Of a stretch of DNA of 64,000 nt, positions 51,524-60,662 are shown one piece after another. Within the stretch, counting starts at the first letter, position 1. Every line of letters starts with the position of its first letter. A program made the position numbers and the translations under genes. Origin of the DNA: Mediterraneibacter glycyrrhizinilyticus (GTDB lineage Bacteria; Bacillota; Clostridia; Lachnospirales; Lachnospiraceae); contig NZ_JADMSO010000009.1 of NCBI RefSeq assembly GCF_015560805.1, forward strand, positions 7,315-71,314. Direction: 5' to 3'. The notes under the pieces were generated by a model. That model had not been told where the DNA came from. It did not search any database and worked only from the letters and a program-made list of their open reading frames with translations.

Positions 51524-53452
51524 TCAGATCTGGTTTCCTGCATCGTAACCCTCTCTGATATTGCGGTATCCGTTCTTTGTCTTCAATGCATCTCCGACAA
51601 CAACGACTTTGCATCCGCAGTCTGCAAGTTCTTCTTCCAACGGATTGTAACTGCGTACGCCCATTGCGTTGACTACCATATCTACATCAGAGAATACGAC
51701 AGTCTCGCCTTTTTTCTCTGCATAAACAGCGCCCTCTTCCACTTTCATCAGCTTCGTACCTCTGTGGATCTCAACATTGTATTTTTTCAAATGCTGAAGC
51801 AGGCAGGCTCTTACCTGAGATACCGCGTCTCCGATAATATCCGGCGCCATCTCGATCATCGTTACATTGCATCCCTGCACTGCAAGGAATACCGATGTAT
51901 CCGCTCCTGTCATTCCTCCGCCGACTACAACGACATTTTTTCCATAAGAAGTACGTCCTCTCAGTACGTCGATCGCAGACTTCACAAACTTCGTATTGTC
52001 CAGTCCCGGAATCGGCAGCACAAGCGGAACGCTTCCCGTTGCAAGAATCACTGCATCCGGCTTTTCCGCTTCCACGATTTCTTTTGTAAGCGGTGTGTTC
52101 AGACGGATTTCTGCATTATATTCTTCCAACAATCTTCTGTGATTGTAGATCCATGCATTATAATCTGTCTTTCCGGGCGGCATTGCCGCTGCGATCCACT
52201 GACCGCCGATCTCGCTATCTGCCTCAAATACAGTTACATGATGTCCTCTCTCAGCCGCACCATATGCTGCGGAAAGTCCACTCACACCGGAACCTGCAAC
52301 AAAGACTTTCTTTGGATGTTCCACTTTCGACAGATCATACACCGTCTCTTTACATGTATGCGGATTGGCCAGACAGTTGACCGGATTTCCGGCTGCCGTC
52401 TCCCCGGTACATCCCTGATCACATCCGATACACTGGATGATATCGTCTGCTCTTCCCTCTTTTGCTTTCTTCGGGAGATCCGGATCCGCAAGTGACGCGC
52501 GCGCCATTGCGATATAGTCCGCTTTTCCGTCGCGCAGCATAGTCTCTGCCATATGGATATCGATATAACGTCCTACCGCGATCACCGGGATCTGTACGGA
52601 TGCCTTTACCGTTGCAACGTCTTCTGCATATTTCATTGCAGAAATAAAGCTCGGCGGAATGATCGTTTCTTTGGATGCAAACATTCCCTGTGAACAATGC
52701 AGAGCGTCCACGCCGGCTTCTTCCAGTACTTTTGCCATCACGATAGATTCCGGAACTTCCAGTCCGCCCTCCACATGATCACAGATATTCATACGGAAGA
52801 TGATCGGATAATCCTCTCCTACTACGCGGCGGACTTCCTCTACGATCTCCAGCGCAAAACGCATTCTGTTCATCAACGTTCCGCCATATGCATCGGTTCT
52901 CTTATTGGAGAACGGAGACAGGAACTGATTCACAAGATAACCATGCGCGCCATGGATCTCCACACAGTCAAACCCACATTCTTTCACCCTGCGCGCACAC
53001 TGTCCGAACGCTTTGACAAGATCGTGGATCTCTTCCACAGTCAACGCCCGCGGAATGTAATTCATTGCCGGCTCTTTGATCGCAGACGGTGCAACCGGAT
53101 GGCTCTCGTAAGCATCCAGTTTACGCTCCCGTCCGGCATGATAAATCTGTGCGCCGATCTTTCCGCCGACCGCATGTACGCGGCTGACGCACTCTTTCCA
53201 GGACGGGATCTGCGCGTCATTCCAGAGCGAACCCACGATCGGATCGCTTCCCGCATCTTCTGTCACTCCCAGATCTTCGGTAAATACCAGTCCCCAGCCG
53301 CCCTCGGCTTTCGCTTCCAGATAACGGATCACCTGCTCATTCGGTGTTCCGTCATCATTTCCGAGATGGGAAGACATTGCGCTTACGACCAGACGATTCG
53401 GAAGTTCCATATTTCTGATTTTTCCGGTTTCAAATACTTTATTAAATTTCAT
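51524..53452 (-). CDS. Iron-sulfur flavin enoate/dienoyl-CoA-type reductase (old yellow enzyme family, BaiCD/BaiH-like)
   Basis: A 642-residue three-part oxidoreductase: an FMN TIM barrel of the old yellow enzyme family (1-370; QIYHAGR and CVEIHGAHGYLVNQFLSPFSNKR), a 4Fe-4S cluster (CIGCDQGCTGETAAGNPVNC), and a C-terminal FAD/NAD(P)-binding half (FVAGSGVSGLSAAYGAAERG and VVVVGGGMTGADTSVFLA). Such enzymes reduce carbon-carbon double bonds next to a carbonyl using NAD(P)H: dienoyl-CoA, cinnamate-like enoates, flavonoids, and 3-oxo-delta-4 bile acids in gut Clostridia. The real substrate is unknown. GGAGA precedes the ATG. It shares an operon with the GntP-like transporter and probably answers to the TetR gene nearby. 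Confidence 0.88.
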   Translation of the reverse strand: MKFNKVFETGKIRNMELPNRLVVSAMSSHLGNDDGTPNEQVIRYLEAKAEGGWGLVFTEDLGVTEDAGSDPIVGSLWNDAQIPSWKECVSRVHAVGGKIGAQIYHAGRERKLDAYESHPVAPSAIKEPAMNYIPRALTVEEIHDLVKAFGQCARRVKECGFDCVEIHGAHGYLVNQFLSPFSNKRTDAYGGTLMNRMRFALEIVEEVRRVVGEDYPIIFRMNICDHVEGGLEVPESIVMAKVLEEAGVDALHCSQGMFASKETIIPPSFISAMKYAEDVATVKASVQIPVIAVGRYIDIHMAETMLRDGKADYIAMARASLADPDLPKKAKEGRADDIIQCIGCDQGCTGETAAGNPVNCLANPHTCKETVYDLSKVEHPKKVFVAGSGVSGLSAAYGAAERGHHVTVFEADSEIGGQWIAAAMPPGKTDYNAWIYNHRRLLEEYNAEIRLNTPLTKEIVEAEKPDAVILATGSVPLVLPIPGLDNTKFVKSAIDVLRGRTSYGKNVVVVGGGMTGADTSVFLAVQGCNVTMIEMAPDIIGDAVSQVRACLLQHLKKYNVEIHRGTKLMKVEEGAVYAEKKGETVVFSDVDMVVNAMGVRSYNPLEEELADCGCKVVVVGDALKTKNGYRNIREGYDAGNQI

Positions 53453-53481
53453 AAATCAATCTCCTATTCTATATCACCTTA

Positions 53482-54777
53482 TTATGCCAGCCCAAACGCG
53501 ATGTTGATCAGTACATACAGAAGACCCATACCAAGCGTCATTACAACGGTCTCCATAAAGATAATAGGAAGATATACATCTTTGAATTTTACTCCTGCCA
53601 GGTTGCACTCTGTCTGAAGGAATCCTGCATGCGGCAGAGAGTCCAGACCCAAACTTCCGTAAATAACGGTACGGTGGAATACTGCTGCATTTGTCAGCGG
53701 CAGGATCTGTGTCAATACCGGCGCTGCCAGTACGATACCTGCGGAAGATGCTCCCGCAACGCCTGCGATCAATGTTACGGAGATCAGCGCAACAAACAGC
53801 GGATGTCCGTTGATGCCGAGGATCTTTTCAACAGCAACTTCGTATCCCGGTGTCGCTGTGATGATCGTACCAAAACCAACGATTGCAGATGTGTTGATGA
53901 CAGTTGCTGTTGTTGTATTGATGGAATCCACAAAATGTTTTTTGATCGGCTCCCATTTGTGCGGCAGATATTTGAACAGAAGAATGATCGATGCTGCAAC
54001 ACCTAAGATCAATGCAAATTCTACCTGAAGTTTCAGCGCGTTCAGCGCAATGATCGGAACGATCATCGGGATCACTGCAAGGATCCAGTGCGGAAGATCT
54101 TTTGGATCCACCTCGTCGTCCAGAGATACCTGCTCGTTTTCAGCCGGAACATATCCGATTCCTTTTTTCTTCATACGCTTCTCATAATATGTGATCCAAA
54201 GCATACCTACCACTGCATATACTGCGGTACAGAAGATCGCAAGCAATCCGCCTGAGCTTACTTCTGTTCCGAAATAATCTGTACACAGCACGTTGTTTGC
54301 AACTGCAACATACGGAAGACTCAGCCCGATGTTGATACCAAGTGAATATCCCGCGATGATAAAGCAGCGGGAAAGATTGGCACGACGGCACATTTTGATC
54401 GCCAGCGGCAGTACGATAAACAGTGTGATGTATACGGAAATTCCGGATGCGATAAAAAGTGCGGATACGATACAGATTCCAAGAGAAATCCGTTTCTCAC
54501 CTACTACCCGGAGTACCATTCTCGCAAGCGAGTCTGCGGCGCCGGTAATATCCATAATTTTTCCGAATACTGCTCCGATAAGGAACATCAGGAACCATTT
54601 CTGTACGAAACTTACAAATCCTCCCATGTAGGTTGTAAGCAGTCCGTCGTAGATGTCCATTCTAAAGTAGATTAAAAGAATTAAGGAACATGCCACACCG
54701 CCGATCGGTGTCGGAACCCCCTTATAACAAAGAACGCCGATCAATAAGATCGCGATCACAAGAATTATGATATCCAT
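53482..54777 (-). CDS. GntP-family (H+:organic acid) transporter
   Basis: A 431-residue membrane protein with about 12 hydrophobic segments; layout and motifs such as SGISVYITLFIVLPLA, SLPYVAVANN and AGVAGASSAGIVLAAPVL fit the GntP/gluconate symporter superfamily (COG2610). A cytoplasmic loop (about 200-225) separates the two halves. Substrates of the family are gluconate and other small organic acids. It precedes the reductase gene by 29 bases and so probably imports its substrate or exports its product; this is inference. Confidence 0.78.
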   Translation of the reverse strand: MDIIILVIAILLIGVLCYKGVPTPIGGVACSLILLIYFRMDIYDGLLTTYMGGFVSFVQKWFLMFLIGAVFGKIMDITGAADSLARMVLRVVGEKRISLGICIVSALFIASGISVYITLFIVLPLAIKMCRRANLSRCFIIAGYSLGINIGLSLPYVAVANNVLCTDYFGTEVSSGGLLAIFCTAVYAVVGMLWITYYEKRMKKKGIGYVPAENEQVSLDDEVDPKDLPHWILAVIPMIVPIIALNALKLQVEFALILGVAASIILLFKYLPHKWEPIKKHFVDSINTTTATVINTSAIVGFGTIITATPGYEVAVEKILGINGHPLFVALISVTLIAGVAGASSAGIVLAAPVLTQILPLTNAAVFHRTVIYGSLGLDSLPHAGFLQTECNLAGVKFKDVYLPIIFMETVVMTLGMGLLYVLINIAFGLA

Positions 54778-54883
54778 AATTACCTCCTGATTGTGTATTG
54801 TTAAAATTTATCTGAATACAAACCATTTCAACAGCTCAAGTAGTGCTGCCGGAAAATATCCCCATAAAATCCGGCGTCTTGTT

Positions 54884-54891
54884 GAGTGTGC
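54884..54891. promoter_or_regulatory. Partial TetR-like operator upstream of the transporter/reductase operon
   Basis: GAGTGTGC followed by CC resembles the core of the operator at 55918-55933 (GAGTGTGCTC), but the flanks do not complete the palindrome. It lies about 105 bases before the transporter ATG, in a 250-base region without any other clear signal. Confidence 0.3.
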
Positions 54892-55028
54892 CCGCAAATC
54901 ATTTTAAAACTGATAAAACTTGAGTTGCGAAGCAGCTGTTTCAAATCATGGAAACCACGAAACTATATGTTTACTCTCATTCTTAATTTTTATTCTGATC
55001 TTTCTCCTGTATCCATACGGATCCGCTA

Positions 55029-55640
55029 CTACCGATCCGCTTTGATACTGTCCAGAAATGTCTGGAGGATCATGTCGATCATCTCATGCATATTGACTTT
55101 TCCTCCGGAAAGCGCCCACTCAAACACGATCCCTTTGATGATCATGCAGCAGGTCTCTGCGTAAAATATCGCTGTATGCTCACTTTTGATCAGATGCTCT
55201 TCTTCCGCTTCCTGAAGACAACAGCGGACGAACTCATACATCAGCTGCGGATTATCCTCATGATAAATCCGCGTGTTCAGCGCCGAATTTTTCGGCGTAT
55301 AATAATTGGCAATGAAATCAATGCCGTTATCCTCTACATAAGATGTATAGCAATAATAATATTCTACGATCTTTTTATCAAACGGAAGCCCCTCCACCTG
55401 AAAATGATGTTCCTGACGATACTTGATAAACCGCTCTCTTAAGTAGTAGCTAAGCAGATCTTCTTTTGTCTTAAAGTGATAAAAGAATGTTCCGTTTGAT
55501 ATATGAGCTACCTTGCAGATATTGCTGATTGAAAGATATTCGTATCCTTTTTTCTTGATAATATCAACGGCAGCTTTGTAGATCTTTTCCTTTGTATTCT
55601 GTGTCTGCACGCTTCTCGGCGTACTCAGTTCTTCCAACAT
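55029..55640 (-). CDS. TetR/AcrR-family transcriptional regulator
   Basis: A 203-residue regulator with a TetR helix-turn-helix (about 14-60: TKEKIYKAAVDIIKKKGYEYLSISNICKVAHISNGTFFYHFKTKE, split over the DNA-binding helices) and a ligand-binding helical domain. It lies between the leftward transporter/reductase operon and the rightward SDR/DUF169 operon, the usual place for a repressor that senses the pathway substrate. Two similar palindromes flank the control region (55743-55760 and 55918-55933). Confidence 0.9.
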   Translation of the reverse strand: MLEELSTPRSVQTQNTKEKIYKAAVDIIKKKGYEYLSISNICKVAHISNGTFFYHFKTKEDLLSYYLRERFIKYRQEHHFQVEGLPFDKKIVEYYYCYTSYVEDNGIDFIANYYTPKNSALNTRIYHEDNPQLMYEFVRCCLQEAEEEHLIKSEHTAIFYAETCCMIIKGIVFEWALSGGKVNMHEMIDMILQTFLDSIKADR

Positions 55641-55882
55641 ATGTAATCACATCAACTCATTTCTAAAAAAATCTGAAATCCAAACATGATCTGTAGGAAT
55701 ACTGTTCCGTGTTCATCATGTTCGAATCTCTGTTTCAATCTGTTATAGAGTGCACTATAAAACACTCATTATTCTGTATATCATTATTTTACAAAAAAGT
55801 AAAGCATTTTCGCATAAAAACTGCATATTTTCCCAGCAATTCCCGACGCCCGAAAAAACTTGCAGAAATATGTCGAAAATCA
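55641..55882. other. Control region between the TetR and SDR genes
   Basis: This stretch is part of the 356-base gene-free region 55641-55996. It is AT-rich and holds the palindrome at 55743-55760 and, on the minus strand, weak promoter-like boxes for the TetR gene (TTTACT and TATACA about 18 bases apart). No small gene or terminator was seen. Confidence 0.6.
55743..55760. promoter_or_regulatory. Candidate TetR operator 1
   Basis: TTATAG and CTATAA form perfect six-base arms around AGTGCA (55743-55760). It contains ATAGAGTG, also present in the operator at 55918-55933, and lies about 105 bases upstream of the TetR gene start. Confidence 0.65.
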
Positions 55883-55911
55883 TTGACAACTAATTAACAA
55901 AATGTTATGTT
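55883..55911 (+). promoter_or_regulatory. Promoter of the SDR/DUF169 operon
   Basis: A perfect TTGACA (55883-55888) and TATGTT (55906-55911) are exactly 17 bases apart. The expected transcription start falls at about 55918, the first base of the operator-like palindrome. Confidence 0.8.
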
Positions 55912-55917
55912 GCTTGT

Positions 55918-55933
55918 ATAGAGTGTGCTCTAT
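55918..55933. promoter_or_regulatory. Candidate TetR operator 2 at the SDR transcription start
   Basis: ATAGAG and CTCTAT form perfect six-base arms around TGTG (55918-55933). It sits immediately downstream of the minus-10 box, where a bound repressor would block initiation. It shares the string TATAGAGTG with operator 1. Confidence 0.7.
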
Positions 55934-55996
55934 GCATATTTAAAATATCCCCTAAATATTTTAAAAATCATATTTTACACAACAAGGAGAACGGTT

Positions 55997-56752
55997 ATGA
56001 ATTATGCAGACAGATTTACTGGAAAAGTAGCAGTCGTAACAGGTGGAGCAAAAGGTATCGGTAAGGCAATTGCCGAGAGATTCGTAGCGGAAGGCGGAAA
56101 GATCGTGATCGGTGATATCTGCACCGAGCGTTTCCCGGAACTGATCGAAGAACTCGGCAGCGACAACGCGGTGTGCATGCGCTGTGATGTCAGTGTCAAA
56201 GAAGATGTTGACGCACTGGTTGAGAAAGCTTATGAAGCATTCAACGGATTTGACATCATCTTCAACAATGCGGGAATCAACATTTTCAAAGATTTCTTAA
56301 ACTGCACGATCGAAGACAGCGACAAGATCTTCAACACCAACTTCCATGGTGTATTCTTCGGATCTCAGGCTGCCGCAAAAGCATTCATCGCGCATGACAC
56401 AAAAGGTGTGATCGTAAACACCTCTTCCATCAACTTCCGCTGCGTAACACCGAACACAACCTGCTACGCTGCAAGTAAAGGTGCGATTTCCATGTTCACA
56501 AGAGGTATCGCAGTGGAACTTTCCAAATATGGCATCCGTGCAAACTGCTTTGCGCCGGGAACAACAAATACCGATATGGTCGGTGAATCCGCAAGAGAAC
56601 GTTTCCCGCATTACACAGCAAAACGTCTCGTGATCCCGCGTATGGCAAAACCGGAAGAACAGGCTGCTGTCGCGCTCTTCCTCGCATCCGACGACGCGTC
56701 CTACATGAGTGGCGAGACCGTATTCAACGTAGGCGGATGGGGTATCTTCTAA
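55997..56752 (+). CDS. Short-chain dehydrogenase/reductase (HSDH/BaiA-like)
   Basis: A 251-residue classical SDR: cofactor motif TGGAKGIG at 15-22, Asp40 after beta-2 (favouring NAD over NADP), NNAG at 90-93, catalytic Ser143/144, Tyr157 and Lys161. It interconverts an alcohol and a ketone. In the context of an old-yellow-type reductase it could act on a hydroxysteroid or another hydroxyl next to the reduced bond; this is inference. The ATG at 55997 follows AAGGAGA; the open frame upstream includes the promoter and is not translated. DUF169 follows 63 bases on. Confidence 0.9.
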   Translation: MNYADRFTGKVAVVTGGAKGIGKAIAERFVAEGGKIVIGDICTERFPELIEELGSDNAVCMRCDVSVKEDVDALVEKAYEAFNGFDIIFNNAGINIFKDFLNCTIEDSDKIFNTNFHGVFFGSQAAAKAFIAHDTKGVIVNTSSINFRCVTPNTTCYAASKGAISMFTRGIAVELSKYGIRANCFAPGTTNTDMVGESARERFPHYTAKRLVIPRMAKPEEQAAVALFLASDDASYMSGETVFNVGGWGIF

Positions 56753-56815
56753 ACAATTTTTATTTCATGAAAAGTAAAATACATATTTTCTTAATAGAGA
56801 AAGGAAATGAATGTT

Positions 56816-57571
56816 ATGAAATGCACAAGAGAAGAGTGGAAAAAATTAAGTGACCGCGTAATGTATAGTCTCAGACCGACCCAGTATCCTGTCGCTATGA
56901 AATTCGCTCATACACAGGAAGAGCTGGATGCGATCCCGAATATGAATTACTGCCAGAATAAGGCTTCCGTATGTAAGCTGATCAGTATGGCTGCATATTT
57001 TCAGGAGACTTTCGGTCTTACAAGAGACCATTTCTCAGGACCGTACTGTGCGATCAACAACGGTTGTATGGATGTAGACCAGGATTATCTGGACGGAAGC
57101 ATTTTATACCGCAAACCGACGCCATGGCACCATGATCAGGAAGATGCTAAAAAGCATATCGCCGAAAACCGTAAACTTCTTCCGGAAGTTCCTTACATCG
57201 GCATCGCATGTTCCTCTCTGTCCGCATGTGACATTGAAGAGCCGGATGTGATCTCTCTTCAGCTTCCGACACAGGCTGCATTCCATCTGCTTGCCGGATA
57301 TGTGGAAAATGATTATGAAAAACTGTACTTCCCATTCAGCGGAGAATCCAACTGCGCAGACACATGGATGTACACAATGAAGACAGGAAAACCGGGCGTA
57401 TCTCTCGGATGCCGCGGCGACCGTGCAACCGGAGCCCTGCAGTTCGGAGAAGTCCGCGTTACGATGACAGCAGAAGCTTTGATCAAAGCATTGGACGGTG
57501 TGGACACTGTAGAAAAGAACGGAATCGGATATCCTTATAATCCGGTATGTCTGTATAAGAACCAGTTCTGA
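56816..57571 (+). CDS. DUF169 family protein
   Basis: A 251-residue protein of the DUF169 (COG2043, ArCR) family. It is rich in conserved-looking cysteines (NYCQNKASVCKL, GPYCAINNGC, ACSSLSACD, SNCAD, LGCRGDRA), which suggests a metal or iron-sulfur site. No signal peptide or membrane segment. The family has no established reaction. The second of two close ATGs (56816) is preferred, since the first lies against the AAAGG site. Its place behind the SDR under the TetR-type promoter makes it a likely pathway partner. Confidence 0.82.
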   Translation: MKCTREEWKKLSDRVMYSLRPTQYPVAMKFAHTQEELDAIPNMNYCQNKASVCKLISMAAYFQETFGLTRDHFSGPYCAINNGCMDVDQDYLDGSILYRKPTPWHHDQEDAKKHIAENRKLLPEVPYIGIACSSLSACDIEEPDVISLQLPTQAAFHLLAGYVENDYEKLYFPFSGESNCADTWMYTMKTGKPGVSLGCRGDRATGALQFGEVRVTMTAEALIKALDGVDTVEKNGIGYPYNPVCLYKNQF

Positions 57572-57693: not shown

Positions 57694-57903
57694 TCAACAG
57701 ATGGAGATCACCTGATAATCTTTCTCTTCCACTGTTTTTTTCAGCACTTCATCTTCCACTTCTTTTGCCAGTGTCACAACTGCGGTTCCTTTCTCATGGC
57801 TGACTTCCGCCGCTTCTACGCCGTCCAGAGCTTCCAACGCTTTCTTCACTGCCGCCTCACAGTGCCCGCACATCATACCCTCGATCTTCATTGTCTTTGT
57901 CAT
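57694..57903 (-). CDS. Possible CopZ-like copper chaperone from an internal start in copA
   Basis: The in-frame ATG at 57903 begins a 69-residue heavy-metal-associated domain (MKIEGMMCGHCEAAV) identical in kind to free CopZ chaperones. GAGGAGG lies at a perfect eight-base distance. The most economical reading is a former copZ gene fused in frame to copA while keeping its ribosome binding site, which would allow both the fused pump and the free chaperone. Only mRNA or protein evidence can decide whether it is used. Confidence 0.5.
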   Translation of the reverse strand: MTKTMKIEGMMCGHCEAAVKKALEALDGVEAAEVSHEKGTAVVTLAKEVEDEVLKKTVEEKDYQVISIC

Positions 57904-60282
57904 GGTTGTTTCCTCCTCTTTTTCTTTTACATTTTCTTTTACTTTTTCTTCCACTTTTTGTTTTGCTTTCTGATACTTTCTTTTCTTATCCTTTACGGTA
58001 TCATACATGCGAAACCAATTCAGCCGCAACGCGTTTGTCACAACACAAAAACTGGACAGGCTCATCGCTGCTGCGCCGAACATCGGATTTAATTTCCACC
58101 CCAGAAGCGGATACCAAACTCCGGCTGCAAGTGGGATCCCGATCAGATTGTAGAAAAATGCCCAGAACAGATTTTCATGAATGTTCCGAAGCGTCGCCCG
58201 GCTTAGCCGGATCACCGCAGGCACATCGCTCAGCCGGCTCTTCATCAATACGACATCAGCCGCATCGATCGCAATATCGGTTCCGGCTCCGATCGCAATT
58301 CCCATGTCTGCGCTTGTCAATGCCGGCGCATCGTTGATCCCGTCTCCGACCATCGCGACTTTTCCTTTTTGTTTCAAATTCTCCACAACTTTTTGCTTTC
58401 CGTCCGGAAGCACTCCGGCGATCACGTCGTCCACTCCCGCCTGTGCACCGATCGCATTCGCAGTACGTTCGTTGTCGCCCGTCAGCATCACAACACGGAT
58501 GCCCATATTCTGCAGTTCCCGGATCGCCCGGGGACTGTCTTCTTTGATCACATCGGCTACCGCAATGATCCCGAGCAATGCCTGCTCCCCTCCGGAAGCC
58601 TGCAGACTGAAAAACAGCGGTGTTTTGCCATCTGACGCCAGACGTTCCGCCTGCCGTTTCCTTTCCTCTGAGACCTCTGCTTCCTGACGGATAAACGCCA
58701 GGTTTCCGCCCCGAAGTTTCTTTCCGTCAACAACCGCCGTAAGCCCGTTTCCCGGAACTGCCTGAAAACTTTCCGCTTCTCTGCCCGGCAAATGTCTTTC
58801 CTCCGCCTCCCGGATCACCGCCGCAGCCAGCGGATGTTCACTCTTCCGTTCCAGCGCATAAGCATAAGACAACAACATTTCTTCTGTAGTGCCCTCGACC
58901 GGAAGCAGATCCGTTACTTTCGGTTCTCCGCTCGTGATCGTTCCTGTTTTATCCAGCGCTACAATCTCTACTTTTCCGGTTTCTTCCAATGATACCGCTG
59001 TTTTAAACATAATCCCGTTCTTGGCGCCCATTCCGTTTCCGACCATGATCGCAACCGGTGTTGCCAGTCCCAATGCACACGGACAACTGATCACCAGCAC
59101 CGAGATTCCCCGTGCCAGTGCAAAACCGACCGACGCCCCCGCAAGCAGCCAGACTGCGATCGTCATTGCCGCGATCCCTATGACGATCGGAACAAATACT
59201 CCCGACACACGGTCCGCCACTTTCGCGATCGGCGCTTTGGTTGCCGCCGCATCACTGACCATCTGAATGATCTGGGATAAGGTCGTATCTTCCCCGACCC
59301 GCAAGGCTTCGCATTTTAAAAATCCGGATTGATTTAACGTTGCAGCCGACACATGATCCCCGGCTTCTTTGTCCACCGGGATGCTCTCTCCTGTCAGAGC
59401 CGCTTCATTGACCGCACTGCTTCCGTCCACAACGATCCCATCCACCGGAATATTTTCACCGGGACGCACGACAAACAGATCTCCCTTTTTTACCTGCTCG
59501 ATCGACACTTCCTGTTCTTCTCCGTTTTTTAAGATCACAGCCTTTTTCGGCGCCAGTCTCATCAGACTTTTCAATGCGTCCGTCGTCTTTCCTTTGGATC
59601 TTGCCTCCAGCATCTTTCCGACTGTGATAAGCGTCAGGATCATCGCCGCAGACTCAAAATAAAACTCATGCATAAAAGCCATGACTCCATCCATATCCAT
59701 CCGCATCTGTGCATCTGTCATCGCAAACAGTGCATAGACGCTGTATCCGAACGATGCTCCTGCTCCCAGCGCGACAAGTGTATCCATATTCGGCGCCCGA
59801 TGCCACAAACTCTGGAAACCGCTGATAAAGAATTTCTGATTGATGATCATCACGCCCCCGGTGAGCAGAAGCTGGATCATCCCCATCGCCACATGGTTTT
59901 CTTTCAAAACTTCCGGCACCGGCCACCCCCACATCATATTTCCCATAGAAAGATACATAAGCGGAACCAAAAAGCATACGGATGCGATCAATCTCCTCTT
60001 CAAAACCGGAGTTTCCCGGTCTTTCAACATCTCTTCTCCTGCCATACTCCCGCTTTTTCCGCCTTGATTTTCCCCTGATGCAGTTTCTCTTACCTCCGCA
60101 CCATATCCCGCCTGCTCCACTGCGGCGATGATATCTGCGTCCTTAACATCTCCCTCCACTCCCATGGAATTTGTCAAAAGGCTTACCGAGCAGGACTCCA
60201 CACCTGCCACATGGGAGACTGCCTTTTCCACCCGGGCGCTGCATGCCGCGCAGCTCATCCCGGTCACTGTATATTGTTTCAT
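57694..60282 (-). CDS. copA: Copper-exporting P1B-type ATPase with C-terminal CopZ-like domain
   Basis: An 862-residue copper pump. Order: N-terminal HMA domain (metal site CAAC at residues 11-14), eight membrane helices with CPCALGLATP, phosphorylation site DKTGTITSGEP, ATP site and GDGINDAP. Unusually, a charged linker (about 765-793) leads to a second HMA domain at residues 794-862 with CGHC at 805-808. A strong GAGGAGG (57911-57918) lies eight bases before Met794, so a separate CopZ-like chaperone may be made from the same gene. The start at 60282 has AAGGAGG upstream; 41 bases separate it from csoR. Confidence 0.93.
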   Translation of the reverse strand: MKQYTVTGMSCAACSARVEKAVSHVAGVESCSVSLLTNSMGVEGDVKDADIIAAVEQAGYGAEVRETASGENQGGKSGSMAGEEMLKDRETPVLKRRLIASVCFLVPLMYLSMGNMMWGWPVPEVLKENHVAMGMIQLLLTGGVMIINQKFFISGFQSLWHRAPNMDTLVALGAGASFGYSVYALFAMTDAQMRMDMDGVMAFMHEFYFESAAMILTLITVGKMLEARSKGKTTDALKSLMRLAPKKAVILKNGEEQEVSIEQVKKGDLFVVRPGENIPVDGIVVDGSSAVNEAALTGESIPVDKEAGDHVSAATLNQSGFLKCEALRVGEDTTLSQIIQMVSDAAATKAPIAKVADRVSGVFVPIVIGIAAMTIAVWLLAGASVGFALARGISVLVISCPCALGLATPVAIMVGNGMGAKNGIMFKTAVSLEETGKVEIVALDKTGTITSGEPKVTDLLPVEGTTEEMLLSYAYALERKSEHPLAAAVIREAEERHLPGREAESFQAVPGNGLTAVVDGKKLRGGNLAFIRQEAEVSEERKRQAERLASDGKTPLFFSLQASGGEQALLGIIAVADVIKEDSPRAIRELQNMGIRVVMLTGDNERTANAIGAQAGVDDVIAGVLPDGKQKVVENLKQKGKVAMVGDGINDAPALTSADMGIAIGAGTDIAIDAADVVLMKSRLSDVPAVIRLSRATLRNIHENLFWAFFYNLIGIPLAAGVWYPLLGWKLNPMFGAAAMSLSSFCVVTNALRLNWFRMYDTVKDKKRKYQKAKQKVEEKVKENVKEKEEETTMTKTMKIEGMMCGHCEAAVKKALEALDGVEAAEVSHEKGTAVVTLAKEVEDEVLKKTVEEKDYQVISIC

Positions 60283-60323
60283 TCGCTCCCTCCTTTTTCC
60301 TGTATGACCCACGATCTGAACAT

Positions 60324-60662
60324 TTAGCGCATTAATTTCTGCAATGTCACCACAAGTTCATCGATCGTCTCATCTTTTCCCTGCCGGATGTCTTCTGCCA
60401 CACAAGTGCGGATATGTTCTGCCAGCAATTCTTTGTTGAAGCTGTTCAATGCCGCGTTCACCGCGGAAACCTGGATCAAAATATCCGTACAATACGCGTC
60501 CTGTTCCAGCATTCTCTTGATCCCGCGCACCTGCCCTTCGATCCGGTTCAGGCGGTTGATCAATTTTTTTGCCTCTCCCTTGGAGCGTTCTTTTTTCTTA
60601 TGAGAACATCCGCACTTTTTATTCTGCACCTGTTCTTCTAAATCTATTTCTTCATTTCCCAT
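60324..60662 (-). CDS. csoR: CsoR-type copper-sensing repressor
   Basis: A 112-residue CsoR/RcnR-family (DUF156) repressor. The copper ligands of the family are present as Cys58, His83 and Cys87. The N-terminal 25 residues carry an extra CGCSH. It is all-helical and binds as a tetramer. It precedes copA, and the palindrome in its own promoter (60691-60711) is the expected binding site: copper binding releases it and turns on csoR-copA. Confidence 0.94.
   Translation of the reverse strand: MGNEEIDLEEQVQNKKCGCSHKKKERSKGEAKKLINRLNRIEGQVRGIKRMLEQDAYCTDILIQVSAVNAALNSFNKELLAEHIRTCVAEDIRQGKDETIDELVVTLQKLMR

Follow-up and report, generated by a model that had tools for sequence, protein, structure and literature searches.

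Which compound is handled by a five-gene island in the gut bacterium Mediterraneibacter glycyrrhizinilyticus, and do its genes belong to one system? The island occupies positions 51,524 to 57,571 of a 64,000-nucleotide stretch (contig NZ_JADMSO010000009.1, positions 7,315 to 71,314), which is called the window here. In gut Clostridia, what becomes of bile acids, hormones, bilirubin and isoflavones is decided by 4Fe-4S reductases of the old yellow enzyme (OYE) type; for most of their paralogues, we know of no substrate. In the window, the list of open reading frames (ORFs) and Pfam together define five ORFs in two divergent blocks around a TetR gene. An OYE-type reductase and a GntP-like carrier lie on one side, and a short-chain dehydrogenase/reductase (SDR) and a DUF169 protein on the other. 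This layout had been proposed in an earlier note; all five ORFs are present and Pfam backs each of their labels. We tentatively read the island as an inducible cassette for the uptake and reduction of an anionic small compound that forms an enone, and give this reading slightly less than an even chance.

The core of the island is not confined to this strain. The order carrier (-), TetR (-), SDR (+), DUF169 (+) is kept in three loci from metagenome-assembled genomes (MAGs), namely L053, L054 and L055 (genomes G704, G705 and G706; the last is a Candidatus Limivicinus MAG), and the SDR is present twice in L053 and in L054. A whole-genome search recovered an orthologue of the reductase in all three genomes (73, 73 and 72% identity in G704, G705 and G706), so that the neighbourhood singled out in the earlier note does extend beyond its strain of origin. 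The reductase and DUF169 (69-75%) are the best-conserved members; identities of the other proteins are listed in the table. The reductase gene adjoins the carrier gene in the window, whereas it lies ~5 kb past DUF169 in L053 and L054. The Limivicinus MAG has the reductase gene on a different contig (L069), as part of a second island that also encodes a DUF169 paralogue of 63% identity.

In Dorea phocaeensis (L052) an intact DUF169 gene lies next to remnants of two other island genes, covering residues 562-642 and 299-324 of the reductase and 208-252 of the SDR, which indicates that the island is largely deleted there and that DUF169 was retained, hinting that this protein may work without the reductase. 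Comparison of the window and Dorea DUF169 genes gave a non-synonymous rate (dN) of 0.083 and a synonymous rate (dS) of 1.54, and comparison of L053 with L054 gave 0.014 and 0.80, respectively. For the reductase, L053 and L054 differ by a dN of 0.012 and a dS of 0.81, and the comparison of the window with L054 is saturated. These values indicate that DUF169 is under strong purifying selection, in Dorea (L052, 9542-10756) apparently after most of the island had been lost.

Further support for a common system is provided by the intergenic region between the TetR and SDR genes. The palindrome ATAGAGYGYRCTCTAT is common to all four of these regions (window, L053, L054, L055), and is located 64, 73, 72 and 71 bp upstream of the SDR start codon, respectively. 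It was found by inspection and tested afterwards: when each of the four intergenic stretches was shuffled 20,000 times, it never occurred. Six genomes were then searched with at most one mismatch allowed. The window genome (G000) holds the palindrome once, with a two-mismatch copy 173 bp off; G704 has an exact site and, within the same region, a one-mismatch copy; the site is also present in G705, and the two exact copies of G706 both fall in this region. No exact copy was found outside the divergon in G000, G704 or G705. In D. phocaeensis (G145) one site with a single mismatch lies elsewhere in the genome, and G231 has none; the reversed pattern, used as a control, gave one match, in G706. 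In the window the palindrome begins six bases past a TTGACA-17-TATGTT match, the classical position of a repressor site. Promoter-like sites are not in excess overall (8 vs 5.1 in shuffles, standard deviation 2.3), and the single match proves little.

Because the palindrome is conserved in all four intact divergons and has a single exact match in the window genome, control of the TetR gene and of SDR-DUF169 by TetR through this predicted operator is well supported. No site with up to one mismatch was found before the carrier-reductase pair, nor before the reductase and TRAP genes of the sister islands. Hence the label TetR-governed, as the earlier note had it, fits half of the island by sequence, and we infer that the carrier and reductase respond to the same signal as SDR-DUF169. 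Since gene order and orientation are the same in three other genomes, the operator is the same in four divergons, and DUF169 is under purifying selection, the five-gene layout is, as judged from sequence, more than chance.

The reductase shows the OYE-type architecture, with an Oxidored_FMN barrel (Pfam 2.1e-83), the catalytic Tyr, a CxxCxxxC-x11-C cluster motif from residue 341 and a C-terminal Pyr_redox_2 domain. Its best NCBIfam model is BaiCD (NF041087; 537.9 bits, 2.6e-161), under the cut-off of 825 bits. Ten other relatives from the same bacterial family (39-50% identity) score 470-554 bits on this model, so the score says only that the protein belongs to this superfamily. When up to four candidates per genome were scored, 43 of the 299 genomes of the family had a relative at E <= 1e-100; the closest of these has 50% identity. 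In a 50-row tree the window reductase and its three orthologues formed a clade (100/100), whose nearest neighbours are a G231 protein (50%, part of an OYE-SDR pair) and then proteins of G026 and G010. This clade is excluded from a 13-row BaiCD-type clade (100/100), which includes three rows above the BaiCD cut-off and was named on the basis of NCBIfam scores and published motifs rather than of characterised sequences. The motif [NTS]-Y-L-x-H at the catalytic Tyr is present in 13/13 BaiCD-type rows and in 0/37 others; the window clade has G-Y-L-[VI]-N-Q, with V in the window itself. The best match in the PDB is E. coli FadH (1ps9, 3e-100), which shares the domain architecture and G-Y-L-x-N around the catalytic Tyr; unlike FadH, the window clade has Phe in place of the active-site His252 (Met in L069), as have three BaiCD-type rows, and the two proteins are not close in the tree. 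These results indicate that the reductase is not BaiCD and belongs to a clade of its own. The earlier note had named firm grouping with a known unrelated enzyme as a refutation; the reductase falls neither into the BaiCD-type clade nor with E. coli FadH, in a tree that has weak deep forks and flagged long-branched rows and in which characterised reductases of the BaiCD, daidzein, enoate and bilirubin types are not represented.

Elsewhere in the window genome, a 1172-aa frame (L002, G000:C24:115820-117733 onward) appears by eye to be a reductase of the BaiCD-type clade fused to a C-terminal Rossmann dehydrogenase-like part. A MerR-like regulator adjoins it, and its architecture is that of the 5-beta-reductase/3-beta-hydroxysteroid dehydrogenase-isomerase fusions described in PMC12238238.

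The sister islands carry additional genes. In L053 and L054 the stretch that separates the core genes from the reductase encodes a DASS carrier, the TRAP proteins DctM, DctQ and DctP and a SnoaL_4 protein, and a gene for an EthD protein follows the reductase; the second Limivicinus island (L069) has the same accessory set in a different order. Carboxymuconolactone-decarboxylase-like and EthD/MmlI proteins were seen in or beside a sister island. GntP-like, DASS and TRAP families are known for hydrophilic organic anions. All three PDB sequence matches of the L053 SnoaL protein are BaiE (best 4l8o, 4.5e-17), and it retains, in the alignment, the Tyr, Asp, His and Asp of the BaiE active site. The SnoaL protein is present in three of eight genomes (G704, G705 and G706) and absent from G000, G145, G231, G026 and G707. 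The Limivicinus genome also holds a separate, compact four-gene bai-like cluster (L250, G706:C105), in which a BaiCD-type reductase (824.3 bits) is accompanied by an OYE protein, an SDR and a BaiE-like protein; the island of that genome is therefore not its bai cluster. Our literature search found no description of a gut set of SnoaL, EthD, TRAP and reductase genes, and a search on BaiE homologues and phytochemicals gave nothing relevant, as judged by title.

Next to the L053 island, tandem sets of TetR, OYE reductase, SDR and GntP-like carrier genes were observed (L071, G704:C29:38000-57000), a possible hot spot of reductase cassettes. Because G704 holds these further sets, the combination of OYE reductase, SDR, carrier and TetR appears to be a general theme, and DUF169 and the predicted operator are what mark the present island.

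DUF169 (PF02596) is assigned with 131.7 bits against a Pfam cut-off of 27; the protein has two conserved cysteines of the CysDuF type, Cys56 and Cys202. No PDB sequence matched it at E <= 1. A Foldseek search with an AlphaFold2 model (6 sequences, pLDDT 76, pTM 0.81) gave 220 matches at E <= 10, 50 of which were listed, with none at E <= 0.001 and the best at 0.24; a new fold or a poor model may account for this. The nearest relatives outside the orthologue group adjoin CoA ligases, CoA transferases and thiolases (L152 and L048 by eye, a Cupriavidus plasmid by annotation), which suggests organic-acid metabolism and no more. In L048 (3744-15263, by eye) the DUF169 gene lies between TRAP genes and a CoA-transferase/thiolase/SDR set.

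A general partnership of DUF169 with OYE reductases was considered and rejected. Neighbourhoods were inspected at 59 of 60 places outside the orthologue group (G336:C67 was left out), without a control of equal size, and an OYE barrel was within reach in six of the 59 (L050, L165, L166, L169, L189, L204); in L182 and L188 only the FAD part of the reductase was matched. Clustering of the neighbours, with 52 of 58 loci recognised as DUF169, revealed no single common partner, the commonest clusters occurring in nine loci. Roles as a CoA lyase, an acetoacetate-decarboxylase-like enzyme or a ring-opening enzyme, which a Lys-Lys motif and the distant operons had brought up, were dropped, because the family as a whole does not conserve this motif.

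Orthologues of DUF169 are rare, and their distribution is patchy. Matches at E <= 0.001 were found in five of the 299 genomes of the window's family, its own included (one at 87%, three at ~25%), in one of 12 genomes of the genus, which is the window's own, and in 51 of 398 genomes of the phylum, again with its own (one at 47%, the others at <=35%). Two short patterns derived from three DUF169 sequences were scanned over 84,980 species genomes and gave, as a lower bound, at least five loci: Dorea phocaeensis (87%), an Oscillospiraceae MAG (74%), an uncultured Clostridia MAG (74%), a Candidatus Limivicinus MAG (69%) and a Bacillota MAG (47%). In the last of these (G707) the gene sits on a 5.9-kb contig and no close reductase was found in the genome (best 40%); at L070 (G707:C115) genes for an MFS carrier, a branched-chain-type binding protein and two each of OYE reductases and SDRs form one run, another reductase set that is uncharacterised. 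The carrier is matched in 64 of 300 genomes of the family of G705, in two of them at >=50%. Reductase and DUF169 queries gave no match in viral contigs, and plasmids showed no DNA match to the island and one DUF169 protein at 24.5%. The island is not in the galT-downstream stretches fetched from ten sister genomes of the genus, where the next gene differs among genomes; one further genome of the genus had no galT match. The patchy distribution and the absence from sister genomes fit horizontal acquisition or repeated loss. G+C content gives no transfer signal (0.41-0.50 vs 0.458 for the window).

In the mechanism that we propose, TetR would sit on the two operator copies and block SDR-DUF169 as well as its own gene; binding of a ligand, probably the substrate or its metabolite, would then release it. 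The GntP-like carrier would import an organic anion. The SDR has GxxxGxG, YxxxK and an Asp that closes the second strand, where an acidic residue marks the NAD type, and would interconvert hydroxyl and ketone with NAD(H). Electrons would pass in the reductase from NAD(P)H via FAD and the 4Fe-4S cluster to FMN, and would reduce a C=C bond made electron-poor by a carbonyl. In the sister islands the BaiE-like protein could make this double bond by removal of water, resulting in an oxidise-dehydrate-reduce loop that resembles bai and would act on a smaller anionic compound. The window version, because it is missing the dehydratase, would take a compound already bearing the double bond. DUF169, as a conserved partner, would most likely bind the same compound or act on it as an enzyme. 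The net effect would be an electron sink, perhaps detoxification, and not a route of carbon degradation.

We favour this proposal because the core order is shared by the window and L053-L055, an orthologous reductase is present in all four genomes and the operator in four divergons. The sister islands add to it, since their SnoaL protein matches only BaiE structures, their carriers are of the GntP-like, DASS and TRAP families, and OYE-SDR-GntP-TetR sets lie beside L053. Several observations weigh on the other side. The carrier is a weak match to GntP_permease (36.9 bits, cut-off 22.5), and NCBIfam gntP gives it 24.7 bits with a cut-off of 292.75. Adjacency of reductase and carrier was not seen outside the window (L053, L054, L069), and this pair could be controlled otherwise, with no operator of its own. 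In the window genome the sister SnoaL protein finds no counterpart, and the complete loop is therefore not evident there. Finally, a literature search for DUF169 and COG2043 found no assigned role; passages of PMC4001038 and PMC5322559 simply list the family, the former in a table of nitrate fitness in Desulfovibrio and the latter in one of co-occurrence with selenium.

The proposal had to be weighed against other substrates. An island for plant phenolics, in which the OYE-type reductase and the SDR act on an isoflavone, a cinnamate or a related phenolic, has some possibility, though we think it unlikely. TRAP carriers are known for aromatic acids, and the EthD/MmlI and carboxymuconolactone-decarboxylase-like proteins of the sister island point the same way. 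Equol producers pair an NADH:flavin oxidoreductase for daidzein with an SDR for dihydrodaidzein (PMC4381290), and these dzr-ddr-tdr genes are substrate-inducible in Adlercreutzia, according to PMC4381290 and PMC6566806. However, they were described in other organisms, and the island contains no counterpart of their third, succinate-dehydrogenase-like reductase, the tetrahydrodaidzein reductase, but has a predicted TetR operator, a carrier and DUF169; in addition, the tree covers no daidzein reductase. Distinctly unlikely, in our view, is a CoA-thioester island with a dienoyl- or enoyl-CoA reductase, a 3-hydroxyacyl-CoA dehydrogenase as SDR, and DUF169 in acyl-CoA catabolism. The match to FadH and the three distant DUF169 genes beside CoA-ligase, CoA-transferase or thiolase-type genes would agree with it, but those proteins are only ~25% identical, the FadH His252 is replaced, and the five genes include no CoA ligase, CoA transferase or thiolase.

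In a steroid or bile-acid island the SDR would act as a hydroxysteroid dehydrogenase, and the reductase would be a ketosteroid reductase of the delta-4 or a similar type. The core of the bai operon (BaiCD, BaiA, BaiE) does combine an OYE/4Fe-4S/FAD reductase with an SDR, BaiCD is the best model of the window reductase, and the sister islands add a BaiE-like SnoaL protein. The steroid 5-beta-reductase and 3-beta-hydroxysteroid dehydrogenase/isomerase systems of gut Clostridia (PMC12238238) likewise combine a Rossmann-fold dehydrogenase and a transcription regulator with an adjacent ene-reductase of the OYE family. The same source gives N166/S171 for steroid and Y or S166 with E171 for bile-acid reductases in the catalytic region, whereas the window reductase has G and Q at these positions, fits neither clade and forms a separate one. 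This reading was rejected as first choice on the grounds of clade, motif and cut-off, and was kept as a very unlikely rival. Against it also stand the separate bai-like cluster in the Limivicinus genome, the fused enzyme in the window genome, the TetR, carrier and DUF169 genes that the island has instead, and the carriers themselves, which would point to smaller anions. Thus, of the import and redox pathway put forward in the earlier note, the generic idea stands, with a regulated island that is conserved elsewhere and encodes an ene-reductase-type flavoenzyme and an SDR; steroid and bile acid are the least likely of its three examples.

The uptake-and-reduction cassette can be taken a step further, to a non-steroid counterpart of bai, which we consider unlikely. 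Gut Clostridia would then import a small alicyclic or aromatic acid as electron acceptor and oxidise, dehydrate and reduce it, with DUF169 as a new type of enzyme, of unrecognised fold, for an undescribed step; the window version would be shortened and horizontally moved. A quinate- or shikimate-like compound would fit the carriers.

Positions of the features are summarised below. The SDR was taken to start at ATG 55997, behind an AAGGAG site, and not at GTG 55925 of the ORF list. The start of DUF169 is probably 56816 (251 aa), in agreement with the orthologue starts and the spacing to the ribosome-binding site, rather than 56807 (254 aa).

Genes and predicted regulatory sites of the island (positions in the window)
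Feature	Position	Strand	Basis
Reductase, OYE/4Fe-4S/FAD-NAD(P), 642 aa, clade without characterised member	51524..53452	-	Pfam, NCBIfam, tree, residues and cluster motif
GntP/CitMHS-like carrier, 431 aa	53482..54777	-	Pfam GntP_permease 2.4e-9; orthologues 54-57% in L053, L054, L055
TetR-family regulator, 203 aa	55029..55640	-	Pfam TetR_N 2.9e-11; orthologues 46-48% in L053, L054, L055
Second, degenerate operator copy (candidate), two mismatches to consensus, TetR side of divergon	55745..55760		Paired site at that side also in L053, L054, L055
Promoter-like TTGACA-17-TATGTT for SDR-DUF169, 10/12 matches, TG before second hexamer	55883..55911	+	Hexamer match
Main TetR operator candidate ATAGAGTGTGCTCTAT, close behind promoter-like site	55918..55933		Sole exact match in window genome
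Classical SDR, NAD-type, 251 aa	55997..56752	+	Pfam adh_short 1.3e-52; catalytic motifs; orthologues 60-72%
DUF169 protein, 251-254 aa, likely start 56816	56807..57571	+	Pfam DUF169 4.2e-38; orthologues 69-87% in L052-L055

The island is flanked by galK-galT, assigned by reading the ORFs, on one side and by a copper-type P-ATPase on the other. The latter (57694-60662) has heavy-metal domains at both the N- and C-terminus, is accompanied by a CsoR-like regulator and is convergent with the island, as seen by eye.

Taken together, the island follows the pattern of the bai and equol gene sets, yet its reductase appears to form a clade of its own and has DUF169 as a partner. One clade of these reductases is thereby linked to a conserved predicted operator, which could report its own inducer, to fixed SDR and DUF169 partners and to a defined carrier, which makes the question of its substrate directly testable. 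For DUF169, the island provides a pathway in which its role may be sought.

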